Below, piece by piece: positions 10,148-20,023 of a stretch of 64,000 nucleotides of DNA. Position numbers and translations under genes: made by a program. A model generated the notes under the pieces. It searched no databases. It was not told the DNA's origin and was given only the letters and a program-made list of their open reading frames with translations. This DNA comes from Candidatus Hemicellulosilyticus sp. P3 (lineage in GTDB: Bacteria; Bacteroidota; Bacteroidia; Bacteroidales; P3), in contig LPNH01000009.1 in the NCBI GenBank assembly GCA_001543385.1, positions 1 to 64,000 on the forward strand, in the 5' to 3' direction. Numbering within the stretch: position 1 is the stretch's first letter; each line of letters opens with the position of its first letter.

Positions 10148-11206
10148 ATGGATAAGATAAACTTGAACTATAAGACCTTATTGATTACTGGTGCCGCTGG
10201 GTTTATCGGTAGTAATTTGGTAAAGAGACTGCTTAGAGATGTGAAAGGTGCTACCATCATTGGTATTGACAATATCAATGACTATTATGACGTACGACTG
10301 AAAGAGTATCGTCTCAGTGAACTGAATAAGAGTGTACCAAAAGGTACAATATGGGAGTTTATAAAAAGTGATATTGCTGACCGTGGCAATATCGATGATA
10401 TATTCAGTAAGTATAAGCCAGCAGTGGTGGTGAATCTTGCGGCTCAGGCTGGTGTGCGTAACAGTATTGAGAATCCCGATGCCTATATCCAGTCAAACAT
10501 GATAGGTTTCTACAGTATTTTGGAGGCTTGTAGGCATTATCCTGTGGAACATTTGGTCTATGCTTCGTCATCAAGTGTCTATGGTGGTAATAAGAAGGTA
10601 CCGTTCTCGACGGATGACAGGGTGGATAATCCTGTGTCGTTGTACGCTGCAACAAAGAAGAGCAACGAGCTTATGGCGCATTGTTATTCAAAGCTATATA
10701 ACATCCCCTCAACGGGTTTGAGATTCTTCACGGTATATGGACCTGCTGGCCGTCCCGATATGGCATATTTCGGGTTTACTAATAAACTACTGAAAGGCGA
10801 GACCATCCAGTTATTCAACTACGGCAACTGCCACCGAGACTTTACATACGTGGATGATATTGTAGAAGGTATTGTTCGTGTGATGCAGGGTGCTCCAGAG
10901 CATAAGAAAGGAGAGGATGGCTTACCCATTCCTCCATACGCTATATATAATATAGGTGGTGGTCAGCCCGAGAACCTGCTGGACTTCGTACAGATCCTGC
11001 AGGAGGAACTGGTCAAAGCAGGAGTCTTACCAGCTAATTTCAACTTCGAGGCTCACAAGGAGTTGGTTCCTATGCAGCCTGGCGATGTGACCACGACGTA
11101 TGCGGATACAACAGCCTTAGAGCACGACTTTGGGTTTACGCCAAAGATAAAACTCCGTGAAGGACTAAGGAAGTTTGCAAAGTGGTATAAGGAGTATTAT
11201 TGTTGA
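10148..11206 (+). CDS. NAD-dependent epimerase, UDP-glucuronate 4-epimerase-like
   Basis: GAAGFIGSNLVKRLL...GIDNINDYYDVRLKEYRL...YASSSSVYGGN...SLYAATKKSNE (SDR motifs). Confidence 0.9.
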   Translation: MDKINLNYKTLLITGAAGFIGSNLVKRLLRDVKGATIIGIDNINDYYDVRLKEYRLSELNKSVPKGTIWEFIKSDIADRGNIDDIFSKYKPAVVVNLAAQAGVRNSIENPDAYIQSNMIGFYSILEACRHYPVEHLVYASSSSVYGGNKKVPFSTDDRVDNPVSLYAATKKSNELMAHCYSKLYNIPSTGLRFFTVYGPAGRPDMAYFGFTNKLLKGETIQLFNYGNCHRDFTYVDDIVEGIVRVMQGAPEHKKGEDGLPIPPYAIYNIGGGQPENLLDFVQILQEELVKAGVLPANFNFEAHKELVPMQPGDVTTTYADTTALEHDFGFTPKIKLREGLRKFAKWYKEYYC

Positions 11207-12376: not shown

Positions 12377-13195
12377 CTACTTTGCTGCACAATCCTTAAT
12401 CAGTTTCCGACCGGCTTCCGTCAGCACATACTTCTGCTTTGACGAATTCGGCTTGTCTGGAATTGTGGGAGTGGCAAGATGGGTGTCTAAAAGTATATTT
12501 AAGCACGTCTGTCTAAATCTGGTACGGTTAGATTGATTCAATAGGTTCATCAAGTCACTTATAGGCATCTCTTCTTGAAGTGCCCAAAACGCCTTTACGA
12601 TAAGTTCAAAATCTGCTCCTTTGACTTGGGACACGACTTGGGACAACTTCTGTTCAAGTTGCTCATTATTATTGAGTTCAACTTGGGACACAACATTAGA
12701 CAAGTCTTCCTCGACAAAGTCTGGATGGCAGGGAATATCTATCAGGAAATAAGCACGGTCTTCATCAGTCTCGATAGTAGCTGATGCAGAACCGTTATCC
12801 TTCAGTTTCCTCTGTATGGTAGGTATGCCTGTGGCTCGTCCTTCCGTCAATTCCAGTTCTTTCAGGAATTCACCCAATCGGCGGTTACGGTATTTCCGGC
12901 AACGGAGCGTTTGTGCCTTTCTCACCACATCCAACGGAATGGAGCGGTCGGGACCTCCGTGATTCAAGATGGAGATTCGGTTAGGCTCGACTGTAATCTC
13001 AACGGGTTCTCGCTCGTTATAATTTCTATGGTACAAGGCATTCACTACAGCTTCCTCCAATGCTTGATACGGATAGTTGAAATACCGTATTGAATGTTCG
13101 TCGTCGGACTGTTTCTTGATTTGCTCCTTTATCACATTCGTCCGTAGGTACGACATAGCATCTGAAATCGTTTTTTTCGATTTCGAATACATCAT
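12377..13195 (-). pseudogene. AlbA/Schlafen-type ATP-binding putative transcriptional regulator, 5'-truncated
   Basis: Central/C-terminal part present (YQALEEAVVNALYHRNY...PVEITVEPNRISILNHGG, LSQVVSQV tail); N-terminal AlbA_2 domain not found upstream. Confidence 0.65.
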
Positions 13196-13837: not shown

Positions 13838-16471
13838 TCAGCTGCACTTGGACCAGCCGCAGTTGTTGCAGGTCTTGCAGCCGCTGCTGTAGACGAGTGT
13901 GCCTTTTTGATGGCAGTTGGGGCATTCCTCTTCCTGGTCAGCAGGGGTGCCGTCCTGGATGAATCCTTTAAGCGCACGTGCCACGCCGTTGGACCAGGTG
14001 GTGATGGAGTCGACATCAAAGGTGAGCTTGCTGATGAGGTCCACCACATTGGGTATCGGCATACCGTGGCGCAGGATGCCTGAGATGAGCTTGGCATAGT
14101 TCCAGTATTCTTTCTTGAACATACGCGACAGCCCTTGCATCGTCACTTTGTATCCGTCGTGGTCCAGAAACTCGAAGTCATAACGGGCGTGGGGGTCGCC
14201 TTGCTCCTTGACGCGGATCACCCATCCTTTCTCCACCCATTTGGGCAGCACAAAGCTTTCTGCCTTGCCGGTAAAGATCTCGTAAGGGTGGTTTTCGTAC
14301 ATGCCTACCACGGCAATCCAGTCTTCACGGTCGTTTTTGAAACGCACGATTTGTGCGTCCAGGCGTTTCGGCCGTTTGGGTGCCTTGGTTTCGCTAAAGG
14401 CGTGTTCGCCGCCTTTCCCTTCGCTGGCCGACACGAGCACACCGTGGCGCGAACCGTCGCGATAGATGGTGCAGCCTTTGCAGCCCGACTCCCAGGCGGT
14501 TTGGTAAATGGTGCTCACCACCTCCTTGGTGGTCTCTTTGGGAATGTTGACCGTGACGCTGATGGAGTGGTCCACCCATTTCTGGATGGCACCCTGCATC
14601 TTGACTTTGTTCACCCAGTCGATGTCGGCCGACGTGGCTTTGTGATAGGGCGACTTCTCAATGACAGTTTTCAGTTCGTCGTCTTTCATCGCCATCACTT
14701 CGTCCACATCGTAATGGTTGATACGCAACCAGTCGATGAATTTGGGGTGAAAGACGTTGTATTCTTCGAAATAGTCGCCGTTTTCGTCCTTGACAATCTT
14801 GTGGCGCGAGGTGTCCTTGTCGTTGGGGTTGATTTTCTTGCGGCGTTTGTAGTTGACCAGGAACACGGGTTCGATGCCCGAGGTGGTCTGGGTGCAGATG
14901 CTCACCGTGCCGGTGGGGGCGATGGTGAGCAGGGCGATGTTGCGGCGTCCGTTGGCCACCATGTCGGTGTAGAGTTCGGGGTCGGCTTTGGCCAGGCGTT
15001 GGATAAAGGGGTTCAGTTTTTCGCGGTTGGCGTCGTAGAGGGGGAAGGCGCCGCGCTCTTTTGCCATAGTGACCGACGACCCGTAGGCGGCGCAGGCCAG
15101 TGTGCGGTGAACCTCGACGGCGAAGTCAATGGCTTCGTCGCTGCCGTAGCGCAGCCCTAAAGCAGCGAGCATGTCGCCTTCTGCGGTGATGCCGAAACCG
15201 GTGCGGCGGCCCTCAAGGCATTTCATCTTGATGTTGAGCCACAGGTTGTGCTCCACACGCTTGATTTCTTCGTCTTCGGGGTCGCTCTCGATTTTGGCGA
15301 TGATTTTCTCCACCTTCTCAAGTTCCAGGTCGATGAGGTCGTCCATCAGTCGTTGCCCTTTGGCCACATGGTCACGGAACAGGTCGAAGTTGAAACGGGC
15401 TTCAGGTGTGAAAGGCTGCTCCACATAGCTGTAGAGGTTGATGGCTTGCAGGCGGCAGCTGTCGTAGGGACACAATGGAATCTCGCCGCAGGGGTTGGTG
15501 CTCACCGTGCGGTAACCGAAGTCGGCATAGCAGTCGGGCACGCTCTCGCGCAGAATGGTGTCCCAGAACAGCACGCCCGGCTCGGCCGAGCTCCATGCGT
15601 TTGCGATGATTTTGTTCCATAGCGCCCGGGCGTCGATTTCCTTGCGCACCGACGGGTTGTCCGAGTCGATGGGATATTGCTGCACAAAGGGTTTTCCGCT
15701 CTTCACACACTCCATAAATTCATCGCTTATCTTCACCGACACATTGGCGCCGGTGATCTTGCCCTGTTCCAGTTTGGCGTCGATGAAATGTTCGGCGTCG
15801 GGGTGCTTGATGGAGATGGAGAGCATCAGTGCACCGCGTCGTCCGCCCTGCGCCACCTCACGGGTGGTGTTGCTGTAGCGTTCCATAAACGGCACGATGC
15901 CGGTCGATGAAAGGGCACAGTTCTTCACGGGGCTGCCGCCCGGGCGGATGTGGCTCAAGTCATGGCCTACGCCGCCGCGTCGTTTCATAATCTGCACCTG
16001 CTCCTGGTCGATTTTCATGATGCCGCCATACGAGTCGCTTTCGCCGTCGTTGCCGATGACAAAGCAGTTGCTCAGCGACACAATTTGGAAATCGTTGCCG
16101 ATGCCCGACATGGGACTGCCCTGCGGGATGATATAGCGGAAATTTTTCAACAGTCCGTATATTTCATCCTCGCTGAGCGGGTTGGGGTACTTTCTCTCAA
16201 TACGGGCAAACTCCGAGGCCAATCGGTGGTGCATCATGTCGGGATTGAGCTCGTAGATTTTATCTCCGTCGCGTAAAGCATATTTGTTCATCCACACATT
16301 GGCCGCCAGTTCGTCGCCGTTGAAATATTGCATCGACGACGCCATAATCTCCTTCGCGGAGTATTGTACGGCTTGTTTTGTCTTGTCTGTAACGGGTTTG
16401 TCCACAGGCTTTCTTTTCCCTTCTGTGGCAACGGGTTCTTTTGTGGCGGAGGAGAACAGGTCGGGTTCCAT
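13838..16471 (-). CDS. nrdJ: Adenosylcobalamin-dependent (class II) ribonucleotide reductase
   Basis: 877 aa; RRGGVGHDLSHIRPGGSPVKN, STNPCGEIPLCPYDSCRL, APTGTVS, C-terminal Cys-rich tail CPNCHQKGTLVYSSGCKTCNNCGWSKC. Confidence 0.93.
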   Translation of the reverse strand: MEPDLFSSATKEPVATEGKRKPVDKPVTDKTKQAVQYSAKEIMASSMQYFNGDELAANVWMNKYALRDGDKIYELNPDMMHHRLASEFARIERKYPNPLSEDEIYGLLKNFRYIIPQGSPMSGIGNDFQIVSLSNCFVIGNDGESDSYGGIMKIDQEQVQIMKRRGGVGHDLSHIRPGGSPVKNCALSSTGIVPFMERYSNTTREVAQGGRRGALMLSISIKHPDAEHFIDAKLEQGKITGANVSVKISDEFMECVKSGKPFVQQYPIDSDNPSVRKEIDARALWNKIIANAWSSAEPGVLFWDTILRESVPDCYADFGYRTVSTNPCGEIPLCPYDSCRLQAINLYSYVEQPFTPEARFNFDLFRDHVAKGQRLMDDLIDLELEKVEKIIAKIESDPEDEEIKRVEHNLWLNIKMKCLEGRRTGFGITAEGDMLAALGLRYGSDEAIDFAVEVHRTLACAAYGSSVTMAKERGAFPLYDANREKLNPFIQRLAKADPELYTDMVANGRRNIALLTIAPTGTVSICTQTTSGIEPVFLVNYKRRKKINPNDKDTSRHKIVKDENGDYFEEYNVFHPKFIDWLRINHYDVDEVMAMKDDELKTVIEKSPYHKATSADIDWVNKVKMQGAIQKWVDHSISVTVNIPKETTKEVVSTIYQTAWESGCKGCTIYRDGSRHGVLVSASEGKGGEHAFSETKAPKRPKRLDAQIVRFKNDREDWIAVVGMYENHPYEIFTGKAESFVLPKWVEKGWVIRVKEQGDPHARYDFEFLDHDGYKVTMQGLSRMFKKEYWNYAKLISGILRHGMPIPNVVDLISKLTFDVDSITTWSNGVARALKGFIQDGTPADQEEECPNCHQKGTLVYSSGCKTCNNCGWSKCS

Positions 16472-16708: not shown

Positions 16709-16861
16709 ATTGTAGACTTACCGTGACCTTGAACCGCAATGGCGTGTCTGATTTTCCCAGCGTGTATAATACGGCCAGAGTCCACTCCCCCCGATGCGTG
16801 CCAACACGTTCCGTATGGGACATTCGGGGAAGAATGGATCTGTGATAAAATCACGCATCAT
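16709..16861 (-). pseudogene. Remnant of an HxlR-family winged-HTH regulator
   Basis: Reverse strand reads MMRDFITDPFFPECPIRNVLARIGG, then in a shifted frame KWTLAVLYTLGKSDTPLRF, then degenerate sequence and a stop. Confidence 0.65.
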
Positions 16862-16879: not shown

Positions 16880-17728
16880 TTATAAACTGGCCAGTACCGA
16901 TGTTATCTCTTCTGTGAATGAGATGTAGCGTTGCAGATCCGGAAGAGCGGGCTCCGGATTGTCACGATTGAGGCGCACCAGCGTGGCGTCGGGGAATTGG
17001 CTTGCCATCTGTTCGAAAGGTAGACGTATGATGCCGGGTGTGTTGAACCCGACACCGAATTCCAGCAGCAACAGGCGTCCTTGGGCCGCGTTGCGGACAA
17101 AATCGCCATAGCGCTTCGACATACGGTGCCAATGGTAGTCTTCAACAAAAGTCCCGTCGACGCGCAGATTTGTTGACGCTGGCTGTCCATCGGGCATGAA
17201 AGGTATCAGTTTGGACGGAATGCGGCAGTTGTCTATTTCCTTTAGTGCGAGTGTCACCCATTCTCGATTGTCCATCAGTGTCTTAGGACTTCCTGAAGCT
17301 GGCTGGAAAAATGCATAGTCGCCCTGTGCCGCAAAAATGCGTTTGGGATCAAAGCCAGCCAGCGCAAACTGTGCATCAACATTTGTTGTTATGATGAACA
17401 ATTTGGTGCTGTACGGCATCAGTTTTTCATGGAGTTGCCGGTATAGTGGCGTGGCGCCGGGCCGATAGCGACAGAACCAGATGTGTTTGGCCCAATAGGC
17501 CCAGCGCTCCTCCTCGGTTGCAAAAGGATAAAAACTGGAGGTGTAGAGGTCTGTGATGCCGTAGCGTTCTATCCAAGGCCGGAATTCCTGTTGGAAAGCC
17601 TCGCCGGCATAATCCAGTCCGGCGGCGGTGCTTAGGCCGCTTCCGGCTCCGACGAGGATGTGGTCGGCCTCTGCCATCAACCGCCGAAGGGTGTCAAGGC
17701 GTTCCAAGAAGTTCGCGGTAGATGTCAT
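16880..17728 (-). CDS. SirTM-class (class M) sirtuin, putative protein ADP-ribosyltransferase
   Basis: ILVGAGSGLSTAAGLDY, DLYTSSFYPFATEEERWAYWAKHIWFCRY, IITTNVDAQFALAGFD, NLRVDGTFVEDYHWH, LLLLEFGVGFNTPGIIRLPFEQM; start placed at the internal ATG at 17728. Confidence 0.85.
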   Translation of the reverse strand: MTSTANFLERLDTLRRLMAEADHILVGAGSGLSTAAGLDYAGEAFQQEFRPWIERYGITDLYTSSFYPFATEEERWAYWAKHIWFCRYRPGATPLYRQLHEKLMPYSTKLFIITTNVDAQFALAGFDPKRIFAAQGDYAFFQPASGSPKTLMDNREWVTLALKEIDNCRIPSKLIPFMPDGQPASTNLRVDGTFVEDYHWHRMSKRYGDFVRNAAQGRLLLLEFGVGFNTPGIIRLPFEQMASQFPDATLVRLNRDNPEPALPDLQRYISFTEEITSVLASL

Positions 17729-18497
17729 AGTCAATATCCTTGAATACGTTGAAAACGACAGTCTGCAGGCTGTGGGTCTGTGATGCGGCCATGCAGATCC
17801 GGACTTGCTCAATGGCTATCTCCGCCGCACGACGGTTGGGGAAGCAGAATTCGCCTGTGGAGATGCAGCAAAAAGCAATGGAACGGCAATGGTGCATCTC
17901 CGCTGACGCAAAACAATGCCGATAGCAGTTGGACAGTTGTGCCTCCTGTGCGGGGGTGGGTTTTCCGTCGGGGATAATGGGTCCGACGGTGTGTATTACA
18001 TACTTTGCAGGCAGGTTGTAGCCTTGTGTCACACGTGCTTCTCCGGTCGGTTCCAACCCACCTTGCATCTGACGGGCACATTCTTGCCTCAGCTGCAGTC
18101 CGGCCGCTGAATGGATGGCGTTGTCAATACACCCGTGCAACGGAACTTGGCAGCCCAGCATCCGTGTGTTGGCCGCATTGACAATTGCGTCGACACGCAG
18201 CCGTGTGATGTCACCCTGCCAGAGGATGATTTTATCCGTTTGCGGGTCGGGACCGTCGTGTATTTCTGATGCCGCGATATCCGTTGGCGTCACCACACCT
18301 TTCTCGTCGCGTTGTGCCTTCAGTTCGCGGTCTTGCGCAAGAAGAAATTCGTCGGACAGTGGTTGGGGCTGCCATACATTCATCAGCGCCCGCAAAAGCC
18401 GTTGCCGACCGGATAAAGTGTCCGGGATGCCGGCTTCAATGCCGTTGTGCTGCATGAGGTAGCGGATGCAGAATGCCAGATTGTCCAGACGTTCCAT
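17694..18497 (-). CDS. Macrodomain ADP-ribosyl hydrolase, zinc-type (SirTM-associated)
   Basis: WQGDITRLRVDAIVNAANTRMLGCQVPLHGCIDNAIHSAAGLQLRQEC; overlaps the SirTM gene by 35 bp. Confidence 0.88.
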   Translation of the reverse strand: MERLDNLAFCIRYLMQHNGIEAGIPDTLSGRQRLLRALMNVWQPQPLSDEFLLAQDRELKAQRDEKGVVTPTDIAASEIHDGPDPQTDKIILWQGDITRLRVDAIVNAANTRMLGCQVPLHGCIDNAIHSAAGLQLRQECARQMQGGLEPTGEARVTQGYNLPAKYVIHTVGPIIPDGKPTPAQEAQLSNCYRHCFASAEMHHCRSIAFCCISTGEFCFPNRRAAEIAIEQVRICMAASQTHSLQTVVFNVFKDIDYDIYRELLGTP

Positions 18498-18543: not shown

Positions 18544-19299
18544 TTATGGTTTCTTTACCAGCTCAGTGACGGCCACTACATTGCCTTGGCTGACGATCTG
18601 GCAGAGGTAAGTTCCGGCGGCCCAGCCGCAGGTGTTGACCGTCAGGGTTGCAGCGGCGTCGACGGGGCGGGACAACACCCTTTGTCCTGATACGTTGTAT
18701 ACATGAAACGTGCTGCCTGCAGGTATTGCACCGGCCTCGATAACGATGTGTTCTGTGGCGGGGTTGGGGTAGACGTGCATCCATTTTGTACGGGCTGTGG
18801 CATGCTGAATGCCATGGGTGTTGCAACGGATGCGCAGATAGGTGTAGCCATAGGCGTCGGGAACCATGCCGACAGGCGCACCTGTGGGGAGGGCTGTAAT
18901 GCGGAATGTGGCGGTGGCACCTTCTGTCACGGTCTCGGGTACAATCATCTCTAACGACAAGTCGTCATAGGTGCTGTTGCCTTCGACGGTGAATGGCGCC
19001 GATGTGTTGCCCGACGTGCACTGGCCGCCGGTGGTGCAGATGCCGCCCACGCTGATGTCGGCGCCCTCGATGAATTCCACTGTATAAGTCAGCTCGACAG
19101 GCCGGCTGCTGTTGTTTGTCACGGCAAAGCCCTCCAATTCCAGCATCATGCCGTGGCCGAGGGTGCATTGTATCGTATCGTCTGTGCCGTAGACAACATT
19201 GTTATACAGATAGGTGACTTCTTGTGCCTGGCTTTCGGTCCAAGCGGCGGCTGTCATCATGAACAGCAGCGGTAATAAAACTCGTTTCATAGGCTGCAA
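18544..19299 (-). CDS. Secreted protein with a type IX secretion (Por) C-terminal sorting domain
   Basis: Signal peptide MKRVLLPLLFMMTAAAWTESQAQ; C-terminal YPNPATEHIVIEAG...HVYNVSGQRVLSRPVDAAA...GTYLCQIVSQGNVVAVTELVKKP. Confidence 0.85.
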   Translation of the reverse strand: MQPMKRVLLPLLFMMTAAAWTESQAQEVTYLYNNVVYGTDDTIQCTLGHGMMLELEGFAVTNNSSRPVELTYTVEFIEGADISVGGICTTGGQCTSGNTSAPFTVEGNSTYDDLSLEMIVPETVTEGATATFRITALPTGAPVGMVPDAYGYTYLRIRCNTHGIQHATARTKWMHVYPNPATEHIVIEAGAIPAGSTFHVYNVSGQRVLSRPVDAAATLTVNTCGWAAGTYLCQIVSQGNVVAVTELVKKP

Positions 19300-19318: not shown

Positions 19319-20023
19319 TCACTTTTCGGGGGTTCCTTGCGCTTCCTCTATCAGTAGGTCCACCACTTTTTTTACCCCTGTGGTGGCTTTTTCGGCAAAG
19401 GCAGTGACGGGCCGTGACACAGACACCGCTTTCGGGTCGACCAGATAGCAGGGTGCCGTGCGTGGCACATAGTGTACCAGTCCGGCTGCCGGATATACAT
19501 TCATCGAGGTGCCTACCACGATGAACACGTCGGCTTCTTCGCTCAGCGCCGCCGCGGGCTCGATGTTGGGCACCGCCTCGCCGAACCACACAATATGAGG
19601 CCGCAACTGTGCCCCGTCGGGAGCTTTGTCACCAAGATGGATGTCCTGGTCGCCGATGTCGATGATGAGGTTGTCATCGCGGTCGCTGCGGGCTTTGGTC
19701 AGTTCACCGTGCAGGTGCAATACGTGTGATGATCCGGCTTGTTCGTGCAGGTTGTCGATGTTTTGGGTGACGATGTGCACCTCGTAGTGCGCTTCCAACC
19801 GCACCAGCTGGCGGTGGGCTTCGTTGGGTTGCGCGGCAAAAAGCTGGCGGCGGCGTTCGTTGTAGAAGTCAAGCACCAGCTTCGGGTTGCGCAGATAGGC
19901 CTCATGGGTGGCCACGTCTTCGACACGGTGTCGTTCCCACAGCCCGTCGCTGTCGCGAAAGGTGCTGATGCCGCTTTCGGCGCTGATGCCTGCCCCTGTC
20001 AGTACGACAACTTTCTTTTTCAT
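19319..20023 (-). CDS. cobB: Canonical Sir2/CobB-type NAD-dependent deacylase
   Basis: [66 protein letters not shown]. Confidence 0.93.

Follow-up and report, generated by a model that had tools for sequence, protein, structure and literature searches.

The window, a stretch of 64,000 nucleotides of DNA, is contig C256 of a 3.04-Mb MAG with a completeness of 95% and an estimated contamination of 4.45%. Two overlapping genes on the minus strand of the window encode a zinc-type macrodomain (Zn-Macro; positions 17694–18497) and a class M sirtuin (SirTM; 16880–17728). Both open reading frames are intact, and their products, 267 and 282 residues long, are a predicted ADP-ribosyl hydrolase and a predicted NAD-dependent protein ADP-ribosyltransferase, respectively. 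The SirTM gene begins with an ATG at position 17728, with the MTSTx start also seen in its relatives, and its stop codon ends at 16880. The 3′ end of the macrodomain gene and the 5′ end of the sirtuin gene share 35 base pairs (17694–17728, minus strand), exactly as an earlier note on this DNA had described. The linkage of SirTM to Zn-Macro recurs in relatives, and most loci of the clade have an overlap of a similar kind, which suggests that translation of the two genes may be coupled. At four loci (L025, L064, L077, and L080) SirTM adjoins cupin/HxlR genes and Zn-Macro was not detected, leaving a writer without an eraser.

The sirtuin of the window belongs unambiguously to class M and not to another Sir2 class, as judged from its sequence and predicted fold. 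Searches of Pfam and NCBIfam matched no model to it, the SIR2 family of Pfam included, and its only sequence matches in the PDB are SpySirTM (5a3a; 6e-38) and a fungal macrodomain–SirTM fusion (8rsn; 2.5e-21). The AlphaFold model of the protein, with a mean pLDDT of 93, superimposes on 5a3a with a TM-score of 0.91, as opposed to about 0.6 for SIRT2, SIRT5, and Hst2. The sequence identity to SpySirTM is 31%. The class M motifs were defined for SpySirTM, the catalytic set of which consists of N118, Q137, and R192 (PMC4518038). The catalytic residues N116, Q135 (in a QG instead of an HG), and R189 are kept in the window protein and are invariant across two alignments of homologues, and the pyrophosphate motif GVGx[NT]TP is present as GVGFNTP (residues 225–231). 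The earlier assignment of the sirtuin to SirTM therefore holds, and profile searches placed it in no other Sir2 class. Its conserved catalytic residues and characterised relatives indicate that it would put ADP-ribose on proteins.

The macrodomain matches the Pfam family Macro (6.4e-38) and the NCBIfam equivalog NF003163, "protein-ADP-ribose hydrolase", with a score of 297.8 bits that is above the cut-off of 272. Among solved structures, it is closest to the published Zn-Macros 8rsi, 5kiv, 8rsl, and 8rsm, with the best E-value of 5.5e-73 for 8rsi. The zinc ligands C116, H121, and C123 align with those of the Zn-Macros of S. aureus and other organisms. The Cys/His pattern GCx4HxCID, from which the protein had previously been recognized as zinc-type, is shared by the window copy and 127 of the 131 collected macrodomain sequences. 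By its sequence, the protein is unambiguously a Zn-Macro. It probably removes ADP-ribose, given its conserved residues and the activity of characterised relatives.

Systems of SirTM and Zn-Macro have been published in three arrangements: an extended operon that encodes GcvH-L, Zn-Macro, SirTM, and LplA, a minimal pair, and a fungal fusion (PMC4518038, PMC11490716). The pair in the window is a minimal operon, carried by an uncultured, Prevotella-like member of Bacteroidales from the rumen, and pairs lacking GcvH-L and LplA2 were already described in 2015 and 2024. It resembles the pair of MorMacro (8rsi) and the lone pairs of Treponema pedis and Enterococcus faecalis (PMC4518038, PMC11490716) in that the genes are adjacent and co-directional, GcvH-L and LplA2 are missing, the class M motifs and the Zn-Macro ligands are present, and a pair of arginines in the macrodomain is absent. 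It differs from these systems in that its sirtuin is devoid of the four zinc-ribbon cysteines and the remnant of an HxlR gene is positioned behind it. The extended operon of Staphylococcus, Streptococcus, and Aerococcus, which also includes LLM and OYE, encodes a homologous sirtuin and macrodomain, and flavin and redox enzymes are found in both contexts. However, the sirtuins are far apart in the tree, the window has no GcvH-L or LplA2, and the single GcvH of its genome is canonical, with changed acceptor residues. The fungal fusion Mfs1 (8rsn) contains the same two domains and likewise has no GcvH-L partner; by contrast, the genes of the window are separate and overlapping, and the sirtuin has no zinc ribbon. 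The extended operon of Mesomycoplasma hyorhinis (L153, NZ_LR214949) is annotated with LLM, GcvH-L, SirTM, LplA, and OYE, and there is no macrodomain gene among them. The single match labelled as phage (L162; OR849908, "Staphylococcus phage SA 1298 Kay") was set aside, as it is an unannotated 5.5-kb contig with an extended operon of the S. aureus type and looks like bacterial contamination.

Zinc-ribbon cysteines and distribution of SirTM

A small zinc-coordinating domain with four cysteines is present in SpySirTM; it is not among the class-defining motifs named in PMC4518038. None of the four cysteines occurs in the sirtuin of the window, which therefore stays in class M as a variant. Among 125 distinct SirTM homologues, all four positions are cysteines in 61, none in 62, and one in 2. 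The SirTM tree proposed in the earlier note was built with members from Bacteroidetes included, as a quick tree. In it, the cysteine-less sirtuins fall mainly into one Prevotella-like clade, which includes the window copy. L131, which branches beside it, and two distant plasmid forms from Lactobacillaceae are likewise cysteine-less; the tree has four label changes overall. The sirtuins of extended operons (Aerococcus L152 and S. aureus L162) occupy a starred branch that is far from the window copy. The small domain of the cysteine-less sirtuin is still modelled by AlphaFold at high confidence. The alignments and models indicate that the SirTM of this clade has lost its structural zinc site but retains the predicted fold and the catalytic residues. 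No earlier report of zinc-ribbon loss in SirTM was found in the open-access literature.

In named genomes, the closest relatives of the window SirTM are from rumen MAGs of Bacteroidales, Prevotella, and Prevotellaceae; more distant ones are from Clostridia, Sporomusa, Paenibacillus, Spirochaetes, Actinomyces, and Methanobrevibacter. The distribution of the pair is patchy. SirTM is encoded in 67 of the 190 genomes of the family, from 3 of its 12 genera, and the macrodomain, at E-values below 1e-40, in 8 of the 198 sampled genomes of the order.

The insertion site and the decayed HxlR gene

Eighteen nucleotides behind the SirTM gene is a decayed gene of an HxlR-type regulator (16728–16861, minus strand), which was detected by tblastn in two pieces (E-value 5e-17). 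The remnant consists of the first 25 codons (MMRDFITDPFFPECPIRNVLARIGG), a frameshift, and approximately 24 further codons, after which the gene is truncated; the N-terminal cysteine is kept. The loci L005, L012, L018, and L027 have the same order of Macro, SirTM, and HxlR, with an intact HxlR gene at the corresponding position.

The pair and the regulator remnant are flanked by genes that are not part of the system: upstream by that of a T9SS-sorted secreted protein (18544–19299, minus strand) and on the other side by that of the adenosylcobalamin-dependent ribonucleotide reductase NrdJ (13838–16471, minus strand). In the genome G100, the genes of AckA, PD40/OmpA, CobB, the T9SS-sorted protein, and NrdJ follow each other as in the window without the pair, and the gap between the T9SS gene and nrdJ is 443 base pairs; the T9SS gene of G100 is only about 30% identical to that of the window. 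The order without the pair is conserved at locus L193. G100 has its own SirTM/Macro pair elsewhere, together with cupin and HxlR genes. The CobB-type sirtuin of the window (19319–20023) matches the Pfam SIR2 family and deacylase models and is encoded by one well-conserved copy per genome, 73–85% identical, in almost all of the checked genomes of the genus. Because G100 keeps the gene order without the pair, and CobB belongs to the genomic backbone, the sequence of Macro, SirTM, and HxlR in the window is best read as an inserted cassette, with nrdJ on one side and the T9SS gene on the other, that has lost its regulator. The immediate neighbours of the window pair therefore say little about its function. 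A functional link to CobB, which is encoded two genes upstream, was considered and rejected, since CobB is a single-copy backbone gene and the pair is not beside it in the 13 relatives examined; the two sirtuins share the Sir2 superfamily and NAD dependence but, apart from position, CobB is unrelated to the pair. No mobile-element signature was found at the insertion, where a repeat search gave one weak 25-nucleotide direct repeat, located inside the genes, and Rfam searches matched no structured RNA around the pair. Elsewhere in the window (12377–13195, minus strand), a 272-residue protein with HATPase_c_4 and Fic-like C-terminal domains has a weak PADLOC match to pAgo/SIR2-Ago models.

The genes of AckA, PD40/OmpA, CobB, the T9SS-sorted protein, Macro, and SirTM form an unbroken co-directional run with short gaps, and transcription could therefore read through into the pair. 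The Bacteroidetes −7 motif TAnnTTTG has no match on either strand between positions 11149 and 22936 (about 11.8 kb), and 38 matches in the whole window. The only intact HxlR gene of the genome is on another contig, C69, of the same MAG (G000). The locus around it (L136; G000:C69:28001-47500) encodes HxlR, a zinc alcohol dehydrogenase (ADH), two aldo/keto reductases (AKR), a radical SAM/SPASM protein, AraC, a CMD-cupin protein, and the end of a flavodoxin; it has no SirTM, and several genes of this cluster flank SirTM in other genomes. As the HxlR copy of the window has decayed, expression of the pair may be constitutive, may depend on transcripts that enter from the ackA run, or may be controlled by the intact HxlR from C69.

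It is also conceivable that, after transfer to another site and the loss of its HxlR, the cassette is now a functionally decayed remnant in the course of being lost. The frameshifted and truncated regulator gene fits such a history, as do the absence of TAnnTTTG from the surrounding region and the GC3 of the pair, which is 0.59–0.61 and thus below the 0.68–0.75 of its neighbours. Decay is nevertheless unlikely to explain the locus, because both reading frames are intact, every catalytic residue and macrodomain zinc residue is conserved, and the pair is positioned in the co-directional run behind the T9SS gene.

Lipoylation partners

The earlier note had drawn attention to the absence of gcvH-L and lplA2 near the pair. 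No homologues of gcvH or lplA were detected by tblastn in any locus of the initial SirTM set, the window included. The absence is not an anomaly, because the minimal pair is a known class, of which it is the expected state (PMC4518038, PMC11490716). The note had proposed that the pair modifies either a different carrier or a distant GcvH; a target other than the GcvH-L of extended operons is supported, whereas a distant GcvH is unlikely.

A role in trans on canonical lipoylated GcvH, analogous to that of extended operons on GcvH-L, was assessed from co-occurrence, alignment of the acceptor site, and the binding patch of the macrodomain. Its partners would be available: on contigs other than that of the pair, the genome of the window encodes a single LplA and a single GcvH, the length of which is canonical; it also encodes GcvT, and GcvH is present in 34 of the 36 SirTM-bearing genomes of Bacteroidales. 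However, no GcvH gene is closer than 5 kb to SirTM, and LplA, with one copy per genome in 35 of 35, is never near the pair. GcvH was not detected in the SirTM genomes G057 and G078, both of which are 98% complete, and the SirTM genome of Methanobrevibacter has a sub-threshold GcvH match only. The acceptor region of GcvH-L, Glu24 and Asp27 (S. aureus protein numbering), aligns with Tyr30 and His33 of the only GcvH of the window genome. The residues Arg175 and Arg176 of SauMacro, which form a positive patch that binds GcvH-L, correspond to Pro176 and Asp177 in the window macrodomain. Each of these differences (the changed acceptor, the absent arginines, and the two genomes without GcvH) is modest, but together they are telling. 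Furthermore, MorMacro, from a minimal operon, could not demodify GcvH-L, and neither can fusion Zn-Macros (PMC11490716). It is therefore improbable that GcvH is the target.

Gene context in relatives and possible function

In a whole-genome count covering SirTM-bearing genomes, 33 of the 54 HxlR copies are no more than 2.1 kb from SirTM, whereas a uniform distribution would give about 0.24; the 33 copies are spread over 32 of the 40 genomes. An HxlR gene is found within 5 kb of SirTM at 37 of the 49 loci of the clade, at 26 of the 60 other loci, which include those of Clostridia, Sporomusa, and Methanobrevibacter, and in none of the 20 control stretches of equal size. At least one recurrent neighbour family is within 5 kb of SirTM at 92 of the 109 loci (and none at 17 of the 109), compared with 0 of the 20 controls, although the families were chosen for recurring at SirTM loci. 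The whole-genome count of HxlR is the stronger test, because it is free of this selection bias and the controls are few.

The recurrent neighbours, identified by clustering and then by Pfam or fold, are HxlR, Cupin_2, PNPOx_N, a degenerate protein with a metallo-beta-lactamase fold, Flavodoxin_4, DUF1848, zinc ADH, and SnoaL. The HxlR proteins match PF01638, and nearly every one listed with its N-terminus has an N-terminal cysteine in the context CPIRxV or CPVExT. The N-terminal cysteine of DUF24 proteins senses electrophiles and oxidants (PMC7835342). The metallo-beta-lactamase fold of neighbour cluster 4, which has no match in Pfam or NCBIfam, was recognized with AlphaFold and Foldseek; its metal motif is mostly degenerate. 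Many members of this family are lipoproteins, and it recurs by SirTM at loci such as L044, L060, L070, L099, and L114. Similar redox neighbours surround the minimal pairs carried by plasmids in Treponema, Enterococcus, Roseburia, and Vibrio, where the place of HxlR is taken by an Rrf2 or LysR regulator or by an ACGX radical-SAM system. At L048, L078, L088, and L155, a RiPP-like system of an ACGX-repeat peptide and a radical SAM protein (acgM) adjoins SirTM/Macro. The neighbour families differ between loci, and HxlR is the commonest but not universal; therefore, no single substrate stands out. The published link to stress was established on extended operons and on the fungal fusion rather than on minimal operons, and no published description of the HxlR/redox context of minimal operons was found. 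A paper of 2024 stated that, apart from the extended operon, it is not known what SirTM/Zn-Macro systems modify (PMC11490716).

The overlapping two-gene cassette, its patchy distribution, and the insertion of the window copy would also suit a toxin–antitoxin or anti-phage module with DarTG-like logic, in which SirTM would be a toxin, by consuming NAD or by ADP-ribosylation, with the macrodomain as its antidote; this is, however, very doubtful, because a PADLOC search matched no model to the pair, the neighbours are metabolic and redox genes rather than defence genes, characterised SirTMs are specific for a single substrate (PMC4518038), and an antidote-dependent toxin should forbid the four loci that carry SirTM in an intact context with no detectable macrodomain.

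The pair is probably a module of reversible ADP-ribosylation in a regulon of thiol/electrophile or oxidative stress, with a target that is likely to be independent of GcvH. SirTM would use NAD to ADP-ribosylate a protein at an acidic residue, and the overlapping Zn-Macro, probably co-translated, would remove the ADP-ribose with the help of its catalytic zinc. The substrate would most likely be a protein of stress metabolism and not lipoylated GcvH or GcvH-L; it is to be sought there because the pairs of related genomes are located with a thiol-stress regulator and not with the lipoic-acid genes known from staphylococci. The pairs of relatives, positioned beside a regulator of the HxlR/DUF24 type with the conserved N-terminal cysteine and beside flavin and redox proteins, point to the module being part of a stress regulon. 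Redox genes are not close to the window copy itself, which counts against its assignment to such a regulon.

A broader generalization, somewhat less probable than its opposite, is that minimal pairs of Bacteroidales, Clostridia, and methanogens serve an HxlR-controlled regulon of thiol/electrophile stress as its post-translational arm and act on a non-lipoylated redox protein, and that the Prevotella-like SirTM works without structural zinc. The loss of the zinc ribbon, which is clade-wide and all-or-none, provides a natural test of the role of structural zinc in ADP-ribosylating sirtuins; it may be speculated that thiol-reactive or metal-limiting conditions would plausibly lead to the loss of a zinc site. 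The link of SirTM to an HxlR thiol sensor across phyla, together with the short list of flavin and redox neighbours, would narrow the search for targets and inducers of non-extended SirTM/Zn-Macro systems to a few testable candidates.
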